From NCBI RefSeq assembly GCF_000377705.1, contig NZ_KB898624.1, positions 1 to 64,000 on the forward strand: a DNA stretch of 64,000 nucleotides, in the 5' to 3' direction. This document shows, piece after piece, positions 15,929 through 31,317 of the stretch; position 1 is the stretch's first letter; every line of letters starts with the position of its first letter. A program made the translations under genes and the position numbers. Source of the DNA: Salsuginibacillus kocurii DSM 18087 (GTDB lineage: Bacteria; Bacillota; Bacilli; Bacillales; Marinococcaceae). The notes under the pieces were generated by a model. It saw only the letters and a program-made list of their open reading frames with translations. It ran no database searches and was not told the DNA's origin.

Positions 15929-16007
15929 ATAAGAGAGCACGCACACGCTAACTTTAAAGTGACAACGAGTCAGTTCCAGCTTGTAAAAGAGAAAGGGGGT
16001 CTTCACG

Positions 16008-16568
16008 ATAAATAAGCAGCTGATCTTTGTAACGGATGGTGACTCAAAAGCCATTCAAGCGGTAAAAAATGCAGCGCGCCACCTTCAACTAGGAGTGGTG
16101 GTTTCCAGTCCGCCGTTAGCTAAGATGACCGGCCAGATAAACCGCCAGCCATTTTCTCGCGTTGTTGTATTGTTTGACGATTATGGATCACACGAAATCG
16201 GTGTCGGGGAAGAACTCATGCAACAGTTAAGTGAAGACCCTCGCTATGAAATTATTGGAGCGCTGGCGGTTGCGTCTACAGCACACCAATACGATTGGAC
16301 GCATGTGGATGTTTCTATAGACCGTTTTGGCGAAATCACGCAGTACGGGGTAGATAAAGAAGGATGGACAGAACTTGAAGTTCAGCGCATTAAAGGGGAT
16401 ACAACTTCCGTTTTAGACCAACTATCCATTCCTCTAATCGTTGGCATCGGAGATTTAGGCAAAATGGGGCGACGGGATGACCCAGTCTTTGGCTCCGAGA
16501 TTACATTAAAAGCATTGCAATTCGTTTTGGAACGGGAGGGTATAAGAAGTGAGCAATCAGGAAGATAA
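16008..16568 (+). CDS. spoVAEA: Stage V sporulation protein AEa, apparent ATA start
   Basis: A cytoplasmic-type member of the spoVA set, which moves dipicolinic acid into the forespore; the exact role of AEa is unclear. Conserved blocks are VVVLFDDYGS, ALAVASTAH, VDVSIDRFGE, VDKEG and LIVGIGDLGKMGRRDDP. The nearest standard start codon in frame (GTG 16095) would remove the conserved N-terminal strand QLIFVTDGDSKA. Reading back, the frame is open to a stop at 15984 with no ATG, GTG or TTG, but ATA at 16008 lies eight bases after AAAGGGGG. I place the start there (186 residues). A sequence error changing ATG to ATA is the alternative. It overlaps spoVAF by 20 bases. Confidence 0.85.
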   Translation: MNKQLIFVTDGDSKAIQAVKNAARHLQLGVVVSSPPLAKMTGQINRQPFSRVVVLFDDYGSHEIGVGEELMQQLSEDPRYEIIGALAVASTAHQYDWTHVDVSIDRFGEITQYGVDKEGWTELEVQRIKGDTTSVLDQLSIPLIVGIGDLGKMGRRDDPVFGSEITLKALQFVLEREGIRSEQSGR

Positions 16569-18024
16569 ACAACCACTCTATTCCGACATAAAAAAGAACG
16601 AAGAAGAATTTAAAAAAAGACTAGGAATGGATAAAAGTTTTGATGTAGGGATCCGTAAGCTGGAAGTGTTCGATAAAGAAATCCAATTATACTTTGTTCA
16701 AGGTTTAAGCGAAGACCAGCCCGTCATGGAACTATTAAAAGAGATTATGAAGCTTGAATCGCGCGGCCGCAAAGTACCCAATGTCCGGAAAGCAGTCGAA
16801 AATCATCTGGTAAATTTGCAAGTTGAATATAAGGATACATTTGAAGATTGTATTACGGAAATGTTGTCTGGTCTTATTTTCATTCTTATGGAAGGTGAGA
16901 GCGAAGCGTTTATCGTAGACGTTCGTTTTTACCCGGGAAGAGGGCCAGAAGAGCCGGACACAGAAAAAGTAGTGCGTGGGGCAAGGGATGGCTATACGGA
17001 AAATATCATTGAAAACACCGCTTTAACCAGGCGGCGTATACGTGATGAACGACTGCGCCATGAAATTATCAAAGTTGGAAAACGTTCGAAGACAGATATT
17101 TGTATTTCCTATATTGAAGATGTGGCCGATCATGATTTGGTGGAAATTATAAAAAAGGAATTAGAAACTGTAAATATTGACGGTTTTCCTATGGGTGATA
17201 AATCGATAGAAGAGTATTTAGTAAAACAAGGGTATAATCCATTTCCGCTCGTTAGATATACAGAACGCCCCGATGTTGCTGCTACCCATTTATTCGAGGG
17301 TCATGTCATCATTCTCGTGGACGCTTCACCAAGTGTGATCATTACACCGACCACTTTTTTCCATCATGTCCAACATGCTGAGGAACACCGGCAAGCTCCT
17401 TCAATAGGTACCTTTTTGCGTTGGATCCGCTTTTTCGGCATGGTAGCCGGTTTGTTCATTGCACCGTTATGGCTTCTATTCGTGTTATCCCCGGATATGC
17501 TGCCGCCTTGGCTGGATTACATTGGCCCACAAGACGAGCATAATATACCGATATTCACACAAATATTTCTAGCAGAAATCGGAATTGAACTGTTGAGGAT
17601 GGCTGCCATACACACCCCTGATCCATTAGCTACAGCATTAGGTTTAGTAGCTGCGCTCCTTATCGGGGAGATTGCGATGGAAGTCGGCTTATTCAGCGCT
17701 GAAGTTATTCTTTATGTAGCTGTGGGGGCAGTCGGTAGTTTTGCCACGCCAAGCTATGAACTGAGTTTAGCTTTAAAAATGATGAGGCTGTTATTTATTT
17801 TAGCGATAGGTTTTTGGGGCGCGCTCGGATTTGTCGTTTCTGCGATGTGCATCTTTCTTTTCATGTGCGGTATCAGATCGTTAAATAAACCATATATGTG
17901 GCCGCTTTTGCCATTTGACCCTCTTGCTTTATGGCAGATCTTTGTCCGACAAACGGTGCCAGCTATGAAAGTACGCTTGCGGATTGTTAATCCAAAAGAT
18001 GAGATTCGCCAAACGAAAGGGTAA
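16549..18024 (+). CDS. spoVAF: Stage V sporulation protein AF (GerA family)
   Basis: A 491-residue inner-spore-membrane protein of the GerAA/GerA family with a large soluble N-terminal region (1-285) and about five membrane segments after residue 290. It modulates germination together with germinant receptors and the SpoVA channel. Signatures: ERPDVAATHLFEGHVIILVD, LAEIGIELLRMAA and a C-terminal RQTVPAMKVRLR tail. GTG start with GGGAGG upstream, overlapping spoVAEa. It is followed by lysA, as in B. subtilis. Confidence 0.94.
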   Translation: MSNQEDKQPLYSDIKKNEEEFKKRLGMDKSFDVGIRKLEVFDKEIQLYFVQGLSEDQPVMELLKEIMKLESRGRKVPNVRKAVENHLVNLQVEYKDTFEDCITEMLSGLIFILMEGESEAFIVDVRFYPGRGPEEPDTEKVVRGARDGYTENIIENTALTRRRIRDERLRHEIIKVGKRSKTDICISYIEDVADHDLVEIIKKELETVNIDGFPMGDKSIEEYLVKQGYNPFPLVRYTERPDVAATHLFEGHVIILVDASPSVIITPTTFFHHVQHAEEHRQAPSIGTFLRWIRFFGMVAGLFIAPLWLLFVLSPDMLPPWLDYIGPQDEHNIPIFTQIFLAEIGIELLRMAAIHTPDPLATALGLVAALLIGEIAMEVGLFSAEVILYVAVGAVGSFATPSYELSLALKMMRLLFILAIGFWGALGFVVSAMCIFLFMCGIRSLNKPYMWPLLPFDPLALWQIFVRQTVPAMKVRLRIVNPKDEIRQTKG

Positions 18025-26382: not shown

Positions 26383-27078
26383 TTACGCTTTATCATCGTA
26401 GGGTTGAACATACAGGCCGTCATAGGGGTCCCAGTCCGCAAACAGAACATCCTCATGAGAATAAATATGCAAGTCTGCTAGCTCTTCATTTAATGCAGTC
26501 AAAGTGAGTCCTGCTTCTTTTATGTTATCACCAAGCAGCTCGCCGTCTGCAATCAAGGTGATCGGCAAGCTGGGCGGTGTTTGACTTACGACCTGTAAAT
26601 CAGAAGCCGTGGGTGTTTTGGTTTCGTTGGTTTTAATGATGTTTAGTTTTCCATTAGCCTCGAGGATTCCATAGGCCACTTCACGCACAGAAAACACATC
26701 GTTATCCCGTAAGAGGTGTTGCATTTGATTAATATCGAGCCGCTGTTTTTTCATGGCCTGAAAATCTAATTCTCCGTTGCGGATAATGACTGTCGGTTCA
26801 CCTTCTAATAGGAACCGACTTTTTTTAAATTTTTGTGTAACCCACTCTACGGTAGCAATTAACATCGTCCAGAGCGCGAGAGCATATAAAACATAATTGA
26901 CTCCAATTTCTTTATCGTAAATAGCGTTACCTACTAATTCCCCTAACACAAGGGCTGAAATAAAGTCAAAGGGTGTTAGTTGAGTAATTTGCGTTTTCCC
27001 GAGCCATTTGGTCATTAAAAGCAAGGCAAAAAAACCGACAATTAACTCTACCGTTAAGGAGAGAACGTTCGTATCCAC
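26383..27078 (-). CDS. DUF421 (YetF-type) membrane protein
   Basis: A 231-residue protein with three N-terminal membrane segments (about 6-85) and a soluble DUF421 domain. GKTQITQLTPFDFISALVLGELVGN and ALNIIKT-like NGKLNIIK after MQHLLRDNDVFSVREVAYGILE are typical of YetF/YrbG proteins. Members of this family act in the spore inner membrane, and the 2Duf protein of the spoVA2mob element raises spore wet-heat resistance (established for that family). The gene faces the spoVAC-AD-AEb cluster from the left. GTG start with GGGGG eight bases upstream. Confidence 0.85.
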   Translation of the reverse strand: MDTNVLSLTVELIVGFFALLLMTKWLGKTQITQLTPFDFISALVLGELVGNAIYDKEIGVNYVLYALALWTMLIATVEWVTQKFKKSRFLLEGEPTVIIRNGELDFQAMKKQRLDINQMQHLLRDNDVFSVREVAYGILEANGKLNIIKTNETKTPTASDLQVVSQTPPSLPITLIADGELLGDNIKEAGLTLTALNEELADLHIYSHEDVLFADWDPYDGLYVQPYDDKA

Positions 27079-27135
27079 ACAGATGACCCCCTTACTTCAT
27101 GTAGGGTGGTTTTTTTGTGTGGAATTATCCGGTAA

Positions 27136-27675
27136 TTAAGCGGAAAACTTAGACATTTGCGCATCAAGTTGAGCTAACGTTTGTTTGGAAGCTTGGACAA
27201 CTTGATTCCATTCACTTTGAGGGTCATGCGGCTGTCCGGTAAAGACTGTTTTGTAACTACGGTCTTTAGTAAGCCAGTAAGTCTGAAGGTAGGATTGATA
27301 CATATCCCAAAACTGTTCGATGGCGATCAGTTCATTTGCGTGAAAGCACTTGGCGAGCGTTTCTTTTTGAAAGCCGGGTTCAATAGGTGTTTGTTCAAAA
27401 GCAGTAGGAGTAAGTGTGTTTGTTTGTTTTTTAACAGCCCTTCGTACGGTTAAGGCGCGCTCTAATACAACCTCTCTTGTTTCCTCGCACAAGTTCTCAC
27501 TTTTTAAGTGGTCTAATTGTTCTAAAGATTGTAACAGCTCAGACATCTTTTCTTGTGTAGAATGCAATTCTGTTCCGACGGTTTTAAACTGTTTTATTAT
27601 CCTGGAAAGAAGCCATAGTACCAACATGATCAATAGCAGTAAAACACTGATCGCGCTCCATATAACAGGTTCCAA
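27136..27675 (-). CDS. Membrane-anchored coiled-coil protein of unknown function
   Basis: I do not recognise this 179-residue protein. It has one N-terminal membrane segment (about 7-26), a predicted coiled coil (about 30-80, rich in Glu, Leu, Gln) and a C-terminal part with FWDMYQSYLQTYWLTKDRSY. It lies just upstream of the DUF421 gene on the same strand (57 bases apart) and divergent from the lipoprotein-spoVA operon, so it may belong to the same spore module (inference from position only). Confidence 0.6.
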   Translation of the reverse strand: MEPVIWSAISVLLLLIMLVLWLLSRIIKQFKTVGTELHSTQEKMSELLQSLEQLDHLKSENLCEETREVVLERALTVRRAVKKQTNTLTPTAFEQTPIEPGFQKETLAKCFHANELIAIEQFWDMYQSYLQTYWLTKDRSYKTVFTGQPHDPQSEWNQVVQASKQTLAQLDAQMSKFSA

Positions 27676-27860
27676 AGGTTACACCCTTTCATCTTTAATT
27701 AGTTGATAAGGTAATGGTGGCAAAGCCAAGGATATTAACCTGTCTGCACATGCTTCCTCTCTCTCGGTTCAGCTCAATAGAACAAAGCAGTGGTAAAGCG
27801 TGAAGCTTCGCGCATTTAATGCGACTTTCCACTTTCCTACTCATATCTTTTTTTGGTTTG

Positions 27861-27882
27861 GTCAAACTACAGTCAGGTTTGA
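27861..27882. promoter_or_regulatory. Inverted repeat upstream of the spoVAC operon
   Basis: GTCAAAC at 27861-27867 and GTTTGAC at 27876-27882 form a perfect 7-base inverted repeat around an 8-base centre, directly before the ribosome site of the lipoprotein gene. It could be an operator or a small hairpin in the leader. Confidence 0.4.
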
Positions 27883-27906
27883 CTTTAATGGAGGTGAGGG
27901 TTAAGG

Positions 27907-28347
27907 ATGTCTACCTGGAAAACATTAGTACCATTTTTCATTATCTTTTTGATAGTGGCGGGGTGTAATACGGATGACACGGGAGCAGCTCAAAAAAAGG
28001 GCACCCCGGATAACCCGTGTCAACAAGATGAAGCTGTAGAAGCAAAAGTCGTATTAAATCAAATGGATGCTTTCATTGAACCTCGAGCTGTCAGCTGTGA
28101 TGAGGAAGTATTTGCGACTGCAAAAGTTAAGCAGATGAACCGATTGAAGATACCAGAACATACGAAAGAAGCTTTAGTCGAGTTAGATGAAAAACTGCCT
28201 CACTCAGAACTACATTTTTCCACAGATCAAAAAGTGTGGCAACTATTAGATGACTTAGAAACTGATACAGGCAGCGAAGAAATGCAAAAATCAGAAATTC
28301 GTACACGCCTTTTAGAAGTGGAAGACCATATAAGAGTGAAAGGATAG
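27907..28347 (+). CDS. Sporulation-type lipoprotein, divergent YhcN/YlaJ-like (tentative)
   Basis: A 146-residue secreted lipoprotein: signal peptide 1-20 with lipobox IVAGC. The mature part contains FATAKVKQMNRLKIPEHTK and SELHFSTDQKVWQLLDDLE, which fits the pattern of the YhcN/YlaJ spore lipoprotein domain (a VAV-type strand, a helix, then a YVSxxPD-like strand and helix), but the usual HANxA motif is absent. YhcN/YlaJ genes precede spoVAC in spoVA2-type operons, so position supports the call. It ends 5 bases before spoVAC. GGAGGTGAGG lies upstream of ATG 27907. Confidence 0.65.
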   Translation: MSTWKTLVPFFIIFLIVAGCNTDDTGAAQKKGTPDNPCQQDEAVEAKVVLNQMDAFIEPRAVSCDEEVFATAKVKQMNRLKIPEHTKEALVELDEKLPHSELHFSTDQKVWQLLDDLETDTGSEEMQKSEIRTRLLEVEDHIRVKG

Positions 28348-28352
28348 ATTGG

Positions 28353-28814
28353 ATGTCTCAGAATAACAAAACCCATTATCAACAATTATCCAGCCAAATG
28401 GAACCAAAGCGCCCGCTATTAATAAATTGCTTTAATGCTTTTTGGATAGGTGGGTTAATTTGTGTGGTGGGACAATGTTTGCAATGGTTTTTCATTCATT
28501 ATTTTGATTTTAATGAGCAGACAGCTGGAGATCCCACTGTGGCTGTTTTAATCATCCTCGCTATATTGTTAACGGGGTTAGGTGTATATGATAAATTTGC
28601 TCAATTCGCAGGGGCCGGTACAGCGGTTCCGGTTACGGGGTTTGCCAATGCCATGTCTAGTGCGGCGATTGAACACCGGACGGAAGGATTCGTGTTAGGC
28701 GTAGGCGGTAATATGTTCAAACTCGCAGGTTCTGTTATTGTTTACGGGACCGTAGCTGCTTTCGTAATTGCCTTAATTCGTACGCTGTTAGCGCAAGGAG
28801 GGATTGCGCCTTGA
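28353..28814 (+). CDS. spoVAC: Stage V sporulation protein AC
   Basis: An integral membrane protein of the SpoVA complex, thought to form a mechanosensitive channel for Ca-dipicolinate in the spore inner membrane. 153 residues with hydrophobic segments at about 28-48, 66-82 and 118-140. Family motifs: CFNAFWIGGLICVVGQ, DKFAQFAGAGTAVPVTGFAN and GMxF-like GVGGNMFKLAGSV. ATG with AAAGGAT upstream. It is the first spoVA gene of the cluster and overlaps spoVAD by four bases. Located far from spoVAEa-AF, unlike the single B. subtilis operon. Confidence 0.94.
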   Translation: MSQNNKTHYQQLSSQMEPKRPLLINCFNAFWIGGLICVVGQCLQWFFIHYFDFNEQTAGDPTVAVLIILAILLTGLGVYDKFAQFAGAGTAVPVTGFANAMSSAAIEHRTEGFVLGVGGNMFKLAGSVIVYGTVAAFVIALIRTLLAQGGIAP

Positions 28815-29827
28815 AGCTAGGTAAACAAAGTTGGAGATTTGAAAATAGTCCGGTTATTTCCTCTGCTGGCACGTCAGCTGGTCCTTTTGAAGCCCAAGGT
28901 CCGTTGGCAACAGACTTTGATGTTTTATACGATGAGCTTTGGCTGGGCGAAACGTCATTTGAAAAAGCACAACAAATGTTGTTCGAGACGGCTTGTAATC
29001 AAGCAATGGAAAAAGGCCAACTGACAGAAGAAGATATTGATTTTATATTAGCAGGAGATTTATCAAACCAAATGACGTCAACAAATTTTGGCTGCCGGTC
29101 ATTTACTCTTCCGTACATCGGTGTGTTTGGTGCTTGTTCCACCTCTATGGAAGCACTTGCTTTAGGAGCTTTTTTAGTAAATGGTGGAGGGGCGCAGCAC
29201 GTTCTTGCTGGAACAACGAGCCATAACGCTGCGGTCGAAAAAATCTTCCGCTATCCGACAGAATATGGATCTCAAAAACCACCTACTGCTCAATGGACAG
29301 CAACGGCTGGCGGGGCAGCTATCGTTAGTGCACAAGGGAACGGTCCGCTCATCACTCATGCGACGATTGGTCGCGTAATCGATGAAGGCCTGACTGATCC
29401 TTTCAATATGGGAGCTGCGATGGCTCCAGCAGCGGTTGATACTCTTAAAGCTCACGTTAATGATACAGGCAGCGATCTTACTCAATATGATTTAGTGGTA
29501 ACGGGAGACTTGGGGCGAGTAGGACGCCCGCTTGCATTGGAGCTTTTAAAAGAGGAAGGAATAGACATTCAGCCCCAGCAATTCGTTGACACAGGAATTC
29601 TAATGTATTCTGAACAGCAAAATGTAAGAGCGGGAGGAAGTGGGTGCGGCTGTGCTGCCGCTGTCACCTTTGGTCATTTATTGAAGCGACTCGAGAACGG
29701 AGAATGGAATCGAATTTTTGTTATTGCTACAGGGGCACTTCTCTCTCCCATTTCTTATCAACAGCATGAGACCATTCCTTGTATTGCCCATGGAGTAGTG
29801 ATTGAGAGAGGGGGTAAGCAGTCATGA
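28811..29827 (+). CDS. spoVAD: Stage V sporulation protein AD
   Basis: A 338-residue soluble thiolase-fold protein that binds dipicolinic acid and delivers it to the SpoVA channel. Thiolase-like landmarks: [24 protein letters not shown] and [19 protein letters not shown] start, with AAGGAGGG well placed and TTGA overlapping the spoVAC stop; the N-terminus [15 protein letters not shown] matches the family. It overlaps spoVAEb by four bases, which supports coupled translation. Confidence 0.95.
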
Positions 29828-30174
29828 TTTTTCTCTGGGCTTTTATCGTAGGGGGGCTGATTTGTGTCATTGGCCAATTGCTGATGGATGTCGGTAAATT
29901 AACACCAGCTCACACATTGGCAGCTTTGGTGGTATCTGGAGCTGTACTTGATGGCTTGGGTATTTATGAACGGTTAATTGATTTTGCCGGAGCAGGGGCT
30001 ACTGTGCCAATTACTAGCTTCGGTAATCACCTCGTTCATGGAGCGATGCAAGAAGCAGAGGAGAACGGGATTATTGGTATATTAACTGGTATCTTTGAAG
30101 TGACCAGTTCTGGTATATCTGCAGCTATTATATTCAGCTTTATTGCTGCACTGATTTTTAAACCAAAAGGCTGA
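29824..30174 (+). CDS. spoVAEB: Stage V sporulation protein AEb
   Basis: A 116-residue inner membrane partner of SpoVAC with three hydrophobic segments, the same length as B. subtilis SpoVAEb. Motifs [17 protein letters not shown] and [20 protein letters not shown] parallel those of SpoVAC, showing their common origin. The start overlaps the spoVAD stop (ATGA). Last gene of the relocated cluster, followed by a terminator. Confidence 0.94.
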
Positions 30175-30194
30175 TTTAAGCTAAGGTGTTGATG

Positions 30195-30225
30195 AATCCT
30201 TCCCGCATAATGGGGAGGATTTTCT
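30195..30225 (+). terminator. Rho-independent terminator after spoVAEb
   Basis: AATCCTTCCC pairs with GGGGAGGATT, followed by TTTCT, 21 bases after the spoVAEb stop. Confidence 0.8.
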
Positions 30226-30451
30226 ATTAGAGAGACAAAACTGTCCACAAGTTCTTTGCCACCAATGGCATTTACCGGCTCCAGGGGGCCTTTACCCTAC
30301 ATCATTGGTTTTCACTTCGTTTGAACTCACTGTGTCTTCTATGCCGCGGTCTGTTTGGGCCCTCATCGAAGCTCTGGTCTGCGGATATTCAGTTGTGCCG
30401 TATTGCCCACAGGGGAGTCTTGCCTCTTTCGTTATTTTCTACACAGAGCAA
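30226..30451. other. Unassigned 226-base non-coding block
   Basis: Relatively GC-rich for this genome (for example CCGGCTCCAGGGGGCC). A reading frame from 30305 on the plus strand runs through it into the antisense of the DUF421 gene and lacks a ribosome site. No known repeat or RNA was recognised. Confidence 0.4.
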
Positions 30452-31162
30452 TTATTTAGGGGTTGGAAGTTCAGGGAGGCGTCCTTTTTCGGAAACGTAA
30501 AGGTTTTTCTGTTCATCCATCCAAACATAAAATGCTTGCGCGATTGTCGTTTGAAAGTTTCCCTCCAATTGTTCGGTAATGTCTTGTTCGGTCAATTGAA
30601 AAGAATCCAGTGTTTCTTGAACAAACTGACCGTCTTTATACACTGGAAAGGTTAGGAGCGTATGCTGGGGAAGTTGCCCCATATCTTCGGCAGTTAACGG
30701 ACGTTTTTCATCAAAAGGATAAATAGATAACTTGCCGCTGCCTTCGATGAGGGCAAGTCGAATGTCACTTGGTTGAAAATATCCTTGTTCTCGCAGTAAT
30801 TCGGTGACATCATCTATTGAATATTTTATCTTTTTCATATTTTCCGGCAGTAGTTTCCCGTATTCAATGACTGGTGTAGGAGGCAGGCTCAATTTTCTTC
30901 TGAAAGCTGGGTATTTAAGCATAAGAATAGTCGCTGTTTTTTGTAATAATCCAATCATGAGAATGGCAAAAGCCGTAAGCGTGTTTGAGACATTGGGGTC
31001 TGCTATATCTGCGCCAGTTACAGAAGCTAGGGTTATAATAATTAAAAAATCAAAAACAGGCATTTCTGCGACTGGTCTTTTTCCCATAAATAGAGTAACC
31101 ATAGCTAACAAAGGAAGAATTGTAAGAATCCTCCCTAAGACGATTGCCATTTCACCCACCAT
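30452..31162 (-). CDS. Second DUF421 (YetF/YrbG-type) membrane protein
   Basis: A 236-residue paralogue of the DUF421 gene at 26383-27078, with three N-terminal membrane segments (about 6-80) and a soluble domain. GKRPVAEMPVFDFLIIITLASVTG and IRLALIEGSGKLSIYPFDE mark the family. It lies to the right of spoVAC-AD-AEb and, like the first one, is on the minus strand, so the two DUF421 genes bracket the spoVA cluster. The product is probably in the spore inner membrane (inference from family and context). The minus-strand start follows AGGAGGT. Confidence 0.83.
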   Translation of the reverse strand: MVGEMAIVLGRILTILPLLAMVTLFMGKRPVAEMPVFDFLIIITLASVTGADIADPNVSNTLTAFAILMIGLLQKTATILMLKYPAFRRKLSLPPTPVIEYGKLLPENMKKIKYSIDDVTELLREQGYFQPSDIRLALIEGSGKLSIYPFDEKRPLTAEDMGQLPQHTLLTFPVYKDGQFVQETLDSFQLTEQDITEQLEGNFQTTIAQAFYVWMDEQKNLYVSEKGRLPELPTPK

Positions 31163-31289
31163 TTAGATACCTCCTATTAACTCTCTCTTTCTTAAGTAAC
31201 AAGGTCATGATATGTGTATTTGCTTAGAAAATGTTATCCTCCAAATCTTTACTAAGTAGTATAACCATGTTCTCTTTCTTTACCATGCT

Positions 31290-31317
31290 GCATAGCTTAG
31301 AAGGACATGCATACAGA
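31290..31317 (+). promoter_or_regulatory. Possible sigma-E promoter of dacB-spmA-spmB
   Basis: GCATAGC at 31290-31296, 13 bases, CATACAGA at 31310-31317 resembles the sigma-E pattern (GCATATT / CATACAnT). It ends 32 bases before dacB. The dacB operon of B. subtilis is sigma-E dependent. Confidence 0.4.

Follow-up and report, generated by a model that had tools for sequence, protein, structure and literature searches.

A resident spoVA2-type operon beside dacB as the probable sole dipicolinic acid channel core of Salsuginibacillus kocurii

In Bacillus subtilis, the seven-gene spoVA operon (spoVA1) follows sigF, with spoVAC, spoVAD and spoVAEb (C, D and Eb, the core) between spoVAB (AB) and spoVAEa (Ea). 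SpoVA2 (5A2) of the Bacillus cereus group consists of NJ2, C2, D2 and Eb2. The YhcN/YlaJ lipoprotein NJ2 was reported as the fourth subunit of this complex and predicted to cap C2/Eb2; it was found in the complex and needed for import of dipicolinic acid (DPA), with B. cereus-group proteins only, and a change at Ser65 of Eb2 bypassed it (Yu et al. 2026, PMC13059800). A further variant, spoVA2mob, is carried on Tn1546-like elements (PMC5133452, PMC10126465), and 2Duf was described near three-gene spoVA clusters (Yu et al. 2023, PMC10126465). Galperin et al. (2012, PMC3533761) listed spoVAC, AD and AEB for all spore-formers; spoVAA (AA) and AB were retained less broadly, and one group could dispense with them. 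In this study, a 64,000-nucleotide stretch of Salsuginibacillus kocurii DSM 18087 (contig NZ_KB898624.1; the window) was analysed, and in it the cluster of a lipoprotein gene, spoVAC, spoVAD and spoVAEb with its two flanking DUF421 genes.

The cluster resembled SpoVA2 of the B. cereus group in combining C, D and Eb with a lipoprotein of the YhcN type, in branching on the spoVA2 side in the tree, and in having Ser65 in Eb. Ser65 is no discriminator of the two types because the spoVA1 proteins looked at kept it too. Unlike the B. cereus group, which has a complete spoVA1 (PMC13059800), S. kocurii had spoVA2 as its sole core and had lost AA, and its cluster yielded neither DUF1657 nor 2Duf. The lipoprotein, C, D, Eb and a nearby DUF421 gene were shared with spoVA2mob (PMC5133452, PMC10126465); the window cluster differed in its fixed place between scpB and dacB (the slot), with no transposase seen, 2Duf outside the cluster and DUF421 genes that are YetF-like and run on the opposite strand. 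C, D and Eb were homologous to those of B. subtilis spoVA1, and the window kept Ea and spoVAF (AF) after sigF. Unlike the B. subtilis operon, the cluster included a lipoprotein and its core belonged to another clade; the spoVA1 core and AA were missing from the genome. On these sequence comparisons, lipoprotein-spoVAC-AD-AEb (27907-30174) is a resident spoVA2-type operon. We put the probability at about 0.86 that it is a DPA transporter that became the sole core after the family ancestor had lost C, D and Eb of spoVA1.

The type of the core was investigated with the best 80 of at least 584 SpoVAD relatives from named genomes, one of the 80 being a family member. Within 6 kb of these, spoVAA, spoVAB and spoVAEa were found in 0/80, NJ2 in 50/80 and 2Duf in 70/80. 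An NJ2-like lipoprotein, 2Duf and DUF421 were found in 0/28 spoVA1 loci. C, D and Eb of the window were 70, 59 and 81% identical to the spoVA2 proteins of Alkalihalobacterium elongatum, and 50, 46 and 66% identical to its spoVA1 proteins. Of the 80 named loci, 29 (25 labelled spoVA2 and 4 labelled slot loci) entered the 108-row SpoVAD tree, from which 46 rows were chosen for a concatenated C, D and Eb tree. One family genome with a broken spoVAD (G009) was excluded from the trees. In its locus (L067, G009:C37), stops or frameshifts were seen in spoVAD and spoVAEa together with a divided resB frame, which may reflect decaying sporulation genes or a poor assembly. The concatenated tree placed the window on the spoVA2 side, outside a spoVA1 clade of 13 rows with 100/100 support; spoVA1 was also a starred group with support 100 in the SpoVAD-only tree.

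The genome assembly (3.83 Mb, 23 contigs) was 99.88% complete. Whole-genome searches yielded one copy each of SpoVAC, SpoVAD, SpoVAEb and SpoVAEa and no SpoVAA. A preliminary description of this DNA had noted the absence of spoVAA and spoVAB from the window and had named a complete second spoVA operon as a possible objection; no second C-D-Eb set was found genome-wide. No SpoVAA or SpoVAB remnant was detected in the sigF-spoVAEa gap by tblastn with two AA and two AB proteins (best E 0.16; spoVAB was not searched genome-wide). Ea and AF were the sole spoVA genes left at the spoVA1 site behind sigF, and the canonical arrangement, with C-D-Eb between AB and Ea, was absent from this genome. A 2Duf homologue with DUF1657 was present on another contig, unlinked to the cluster, and a FigP homologue (YqhR family) elsewhere in the genome.

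Conservation was examined in 28 family genomes of at least 95% completeness. SpoVAD was present in 22/28, SpoVAA in 14/28 and SpoVAEa in 12/28. AA occurred without Ea in 10 genomes, Ea without AA in 8, both in 4, and neither AA, Ea nor SpoVAD in 6. The last six (G011-G015 and G026) are probably asporogenous lineages. Lipoprotein-C-D-Eb lay upstream of dacB in all 22 SpoVAD-bearing genomes, with an intervening DUF421 gene in some, and four named genomes from other genera (L085, L090, L094, L124) carried this cluster too, with DUF421_1 and dacB at its flanks. The arrangement is not due to chance. A further cluster was present at another site in four family genomes, followed there by a 2Duf of 286 aa; DUF1657 was seen in the one that was scanned.

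Loss of the spoVA1 core was indicated by the outgroups. Two Alkalihalobacterium species and Halalkalibacter carried the seven-gene spoVA1 after sigF plus spoVA2 beside dacB; the SpoVADs of the two operons were 24-25 kb apart in Alkalihalobacterium, and the operons were on different contigs in Halalkalibacter. Since these nearest outgroups have both the slot cluster and a full spoVA1, the family appears to have lost the spoVA1 core, which would explain why the cluster is the one C-D-Eb core of the S. kocurii genome. Nine named genomes (two Evansella, Litchfieldia, Peribacillus, Neobacillus, Sediminibacillus, Virgibacillus, Jeotgalibacillus and Domibacillus), chosen because SpoVAA lay apart from every SpoVAD, had AA-AB-(Ea)-AF without C-D-Eb. 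The order was then surveyed with 110 evenly drawn genomes, at least 97% complete and including that of the window, and SpoVAA within 4 kb of a SpoVAD was counted as intact. Among the matches listed, SpoVAA was beside SpoVAD in 58 genomes and away from every SpoVAD in 44 (coreless by position); SpoVAA was absent with SpoVAD present in 7, and both were absent in 1.

Twenty of the 44 coreless genomes, one or two per family, were read in sequence. C-D-Eb was missing behind AB in 20/20. AA-AB was followed by Ea in 13 and directly by AF in 7, with sigF within the stretch in 18. SpoVAD lay outside the spoVA1 group in all 20, and NJ2 was beside it in 17. The median gap from AB to the next gene was 18.5 bp in 12 family loci, 13 bp in the 9 named loci and 21 bp in the 20 survey loci (range -73 to 217). 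Every coreless operon that was examined, 22 from the family, 9 from named genomes and 20 from the survey, had kept SpoVAF. A species tree of SigF, SpoIIAB, SpoVAF and LysA (78 rows, quick method) required at least 9 changes of core presence, 6 of them forced by starred branches, with L277 scored as intact though D alone remains and L273 and L274 as intact without AA-AB. The 21 family rows formed one coreless clade (100, starred) beside intact outgroups. Judged from gene content and trees, the core swap is common and repeated among relatives. No published report of spoVA1 core removal was found, judged by titles and the start of abstracts; the spoVA2 channel type is already known, and recurrent core replacement was not found in print. 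The genome of L277 (G092) showed sigF-D1-Ea-AF with an intact spoVA2 elsewhere in an assembly of 680 contigs, an arrangement that looks like a middle stage of core loss.

The preliminary description had regarded the locus as a split canonical operon whose own C-D-Eb had moved 10 kb downstream. This reading is tempting, with one core in the genome, close to sigF and the Ea-AF remnant, and with the window near the spoVA1 base in the SpoVAD-only tree. It is nevertheless very improbable. The cores lay outside the 100/100 clade, and forcing the family slot copies together with the Alkalihalobacterium and Halalkalibacter spoVA1 cores gave a likelihood 188 lnL units worse (approximately unbiased test, p-AU 0.00027). 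Two outgroup genomes hold both operons, each in its place, and the NJ2-kind lipoprotein was found in none of the 28 spoVA1 loci. Relocation of spoVA1 was rejected on the concatenated tree and the topology test, and the grouping of these genes with spoVA1, a possibility raised beforehand, did not appear in the C-D-Eb trees. Recent capture of a spoVA2mob-like mobile element by the chromosome has in its favour the shared YhcN-like lipoprotein, C, D, Eb and DUF421. It is hardly credible, however, because the place of the cluster is conserved across the family and in the four named genomes of other genera. No transposase was recognised among the open reading frames (ORFs) around the slot, inspected by eye, as described before, and neither 2Duf nor DUF1657 was found in the cluster. 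A recent mobile element was rejected on synteny and the missing parts. The earlier comparison with spoVA2mob held for the lipoprotein, C, D, Eb and DUF421 and failed for 2Duf and the transposase. Its suggestion that the locus is a spore-membrane module of spoVA2 type residing on the chromosome agreed with the gene content and the tree. Its other suggestion, an ancestral source of spoVA2mob, was not supported: it was the 2Duf-linked second copies, not the slot copy, that lay near the spoVA2 core of Bacillus glycinifermentans (two of four copies in the concatenated tree; 98/57, not starred), and all four 2Duf-linked family copies formed one starred group in the SpoVAD tree. Several observations weigh against a resident spoVA2 operon left by core loss. 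The SpoVAD-only tree hung the window and nine family rows near the spoVA1 base with support of 82-93, not starred, probably due to long branches. The slot copies formed no single clade in unconstrained trees; a single slot clade was not rejected (p-AU 0.42 for the family, 0.19 for family and outgroup slots), and these sequences neither establish nor reject a common origin of all slot copies. The second SpoVAD of Domibacillus (L209) stood untyped on a long branch beside spoVA1. The window lipoprotein itself had no PF09580 match, and a genome-wide PF09580 search yielded one paralogue elsewhere and nothing at the cluster. The gene tree was midpoint-rooted, and core loss rests on the species tree and the outgroups.

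The opposite direction of change, a coreless ancestral state from which other lineages gained the spoVA1 core by insertion between AB and Ea, would suit the tight coreless junctions (medians 13-21 bp) and a gene tree without a true root. It is unlikely: the spoVA1 cores belong to a single clade and occupy a single site, genomes with and without the core are intermingled in the species tree, and an orphan D1 was kept in one genome (L277). Loss of the core from spoVA1 is preferred here. The role of the flanking DUF421 genes is a separate question, and their membership of the module, aiding wet-heat resistance like YetF or 2Duf, is possible and is put forward tentatively. Both genes are YetF-sized and share the DUF421 domain with the spore membrane proteins YetF, YdfS and 2Duf; DUF421_1 matched the YetF structure 3C6F (E 7.9e-38), and unlike 2Duf neither gene showed DUF1657. 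Among the best 80 loci, 13 had a DUF421_1-like gene no more than 6 kb from spoVA2 (11 on the opposite strand only; five were slot loci), as did 5/20 sampled coreless loci vs 0/28 spoVA1 loci. Sigma-G-like sites preceded DUF421_1, and loss of yetF or ydfS lowered B. subtilis spore heat resistance (PMC10126465). Against this role, the genes lie outside the operon, DUF421_1 was present in 17/27 and DUF421_2 in 10/27 slot loci, and five of the seven DUF421 genes of the genome lie elsewhere and could serve instead.

The window lipoprotein shared 20-32% identity with the family lipoproteins in the alignment and had a lipobox-like cysteine at residue 20. PF09580 (Spore_YhcN_YlaJ) was matched by 12/15 aligned homologues. 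Its AlphaFold2 model had a mean pLDDT of 84.9. In a VIA comparison, the model was aligned with B. subtilis YhcN (7PEG) with Z 12.1 and rmsd 2.9 over 107 residues of the 109-residue chain at 6% identity, and the runner-up entry had Z 7.7. Foldseek ranked YhcN ninth (E 0.015), and YhcN was not retrieved when PDB sequences were searched with a profile of the lipoprotein alignment. On the model, the lipoprotein has the YhcN fold and corresponds to NJ2. Where spoVA2 is split, NJ2 stays with Eb, which supports a bond between the two: NJ2 and Eb alone adjoined dacB in three Evansella/Litchfieldia genomes, with C and D elsewhere, and NJ2-C-Eb stood together with D elsewhere in G059, G087, G153 and G040. 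In G125, C-Eb stood without D. In L221, L236 and relatives, D formed its own cluster with DUF1657 and 2Duf, apart from NJ2-C-Eb; the plug would therefore be separable from the channel. The lipoproteins of the window (27907-28347) and one congener (L060:10037-10504) shared two extra cysteines, and the congener protein had no clear lipobox as read.

By analogy with published work in other species, C and Eb would form the inner-membrane channel, D its core-side plug and NJ2 its outer cap, and NJ2-C-D-Eb would load and release DPA as the sole channel. After the family ancestor had dropped C, D and Eb, AA-AB, Ea and AF would have been kept variously by lineage, and the window lineage would then have lost AA as well. 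SpoVAF with its FigP partner may still work with the SpoVA2 channel as an ion trigger. The retention of SpoVAF in coreless operons fits the report that, among spoVA1 genes, F is most important for germination in a species also carrying spoVA2 (PMC13059800). According to a review (PMC11841064), loss of AA or AB leads to premature germination, which is suppressed by gerA deletion. AA-AB may therefore serve receptors rather than their own core, and this would explain their survival without it. Stabilisation of the same membrane by the two YetF-like DUF421 proteins is the least certain step.

More broadly, we are inclined to regard the DPA channel core of Bacillales as exchangeable. The spoVA1 core would have been repeatedly excised, always in typed genomes carrying a spoVA2 core, and AA-AB, Ea and above all SpoVAF would have been retained and would now act together with the capped SpoVA2. 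B. subtilis, with spoVA1 only, and the B. cereus group, with both types, would then be poor models for a large SpoVA2-only group, in which NJ2 should be indispensable. The SpoVA2/NJ2 channel appears to be the only one in many spore-formers, which makes them a natural experiment. Whether the cap is essential without a spoVA1 core, what function SpoVAA/SpoVAB have once their own core is gone, and whether SpoVAF/FigP triggers either channel can now be tested.

Promoter-like sites were scored with a sigma-G-like weighted pattern at a cut-off of at least 16 against shuffled sequences. Such scores occurred before NJ2 in 22/27 slot loci vs 18% of shuffles, more weakly before DUF421_1 in 12/17 orthologue upstreams vs 18.5%, and before DUF421_2 in 8/10 vs 20%, the last at positions that were not conserved. 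The controls stayed close to background: dacB 6/27, scpA 4/24, ypuF 3/16, rluB 0/25, resD 0/22 and ypuI 0/11, with shuffles at 12-28%. These counts are not independent because the loci are related, and the contrast is exploratory because the weighted pattern was built after the strict result had been seen. The strict sigma-G pattern was found before NJ2 in 7/27 loci vs 1.7 expected, six of the seven from close relatives, and before the control dacB in 5/27 vs 1.5 expected.

The ORF list and family scans confirmed the genes and strands described earlier for 26383-31162, as well as spoVAEa-AF after sigF and C-D-AEb between scpB and dacB behind the lipoprotein. The slot extended from the end of scpB (26378) to the start of dacB (31350). 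The lipoprotein gene, spoVAC, spoVAD and spoVAEb formed a tight run on the + strand, with a 5 bp gap followed by two 4 bp overlaps. The features are listed in Table 1.

Table 1. Position and assignment of the spoVA genes, their neighbours and the sigma-G-like sites of the window.
Feature	Position	Strand	Evidence or remark
spoVAEa, spoVA1 operon remnant	16008..16568	+	PF14097; conserved N-terminus at ATA codon
spoVAF (GerA family), spoVA1 operon remnant	16549..18024	+	PF03323 E 1.1e-152; place after spoVAEa
DUF421_1, YetF-like membrane protein	26383..27078	-	PF04239 and PF20730; no DUF1657 match
Sigma-G-like site GGATA-N17-CACCCTA before DUF421_1	27102..27130	-	Weighted pattern
ypuI-like gene, part of scpB-dacB slot	27136..27675	-	Present in 11/27 slot loci
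Sigma-G-like promoter site TCATA-N17-CAAACTA	27841..27869	+	66 bases upstream of NJ2 start
NJ2-type (YhcN/YlaJ) lipoprotein, predicted extracytoplasmic channel cap	27907..28347	+	Family homology, YhcN fold
spoVAC, spoVA2 type, putative channel subunit	28353..28814	+	TIGR02838 above cut-off; concatenated tree
spoVAD, spoVA2 type, putative cytoplasmic plug	28811..29827	+	PF07451; PRK12404 547 bits vs PRK08304 469; trees
spoVAEb, spoVA2 type, putative channel subunit	29824..30174	+	TIGR02839 above cut-off; Ser65 kept
DUF421_2, convergent with spoVAEb	30452..31162	-	PF04239 sole domain match; in 10/27 slot loci
Weak sigma-G-like site upstream of DUF421_2, at a non-conserved position	31281..31310	-	Weighted pattern

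A gene between DUF421_1 and the lipoprotein gene had been overlooked in the preliminary description. It had no Pfam or NCBIfam match, and we take it to be ypuI-like from the B. subtilis gene order. The family scans covered a subset of the window genes; sigF, lysA, scpA, dacB, the spm, res and ger genes and others carry labels that we assumed from sequence and gene order. The conserved N-terminus of spoVAEa began at an ATA at 16008, 8 bases past a strong ribosome-binding site (window 15992-16097), with no in-frame ATG, GTG or TTG before 16095; this may be an uncommon initiation codon or one that is in the course of being lost.

In G021 and G022, which have both AA and Ea, AA-AB lay away from sigF. 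The spoVAA-AB pair of these genomes (L071 and L068, respectively) was far from sigF, behind a gene presumably of the DJ-1/PfpI kind, judged by its sequence. This position suggests transfer or re-acquisition of the pair alone. Other genes separated scpB from the spoVA2 cluster in G001. In L043, L061 and L065, a gene with an N-terminal extension, which we take from its sequence to be superoxide-dismutase-like, lay between scpB and the spoVA2 cluster, and ORFs of similar length were present there in further relatives.

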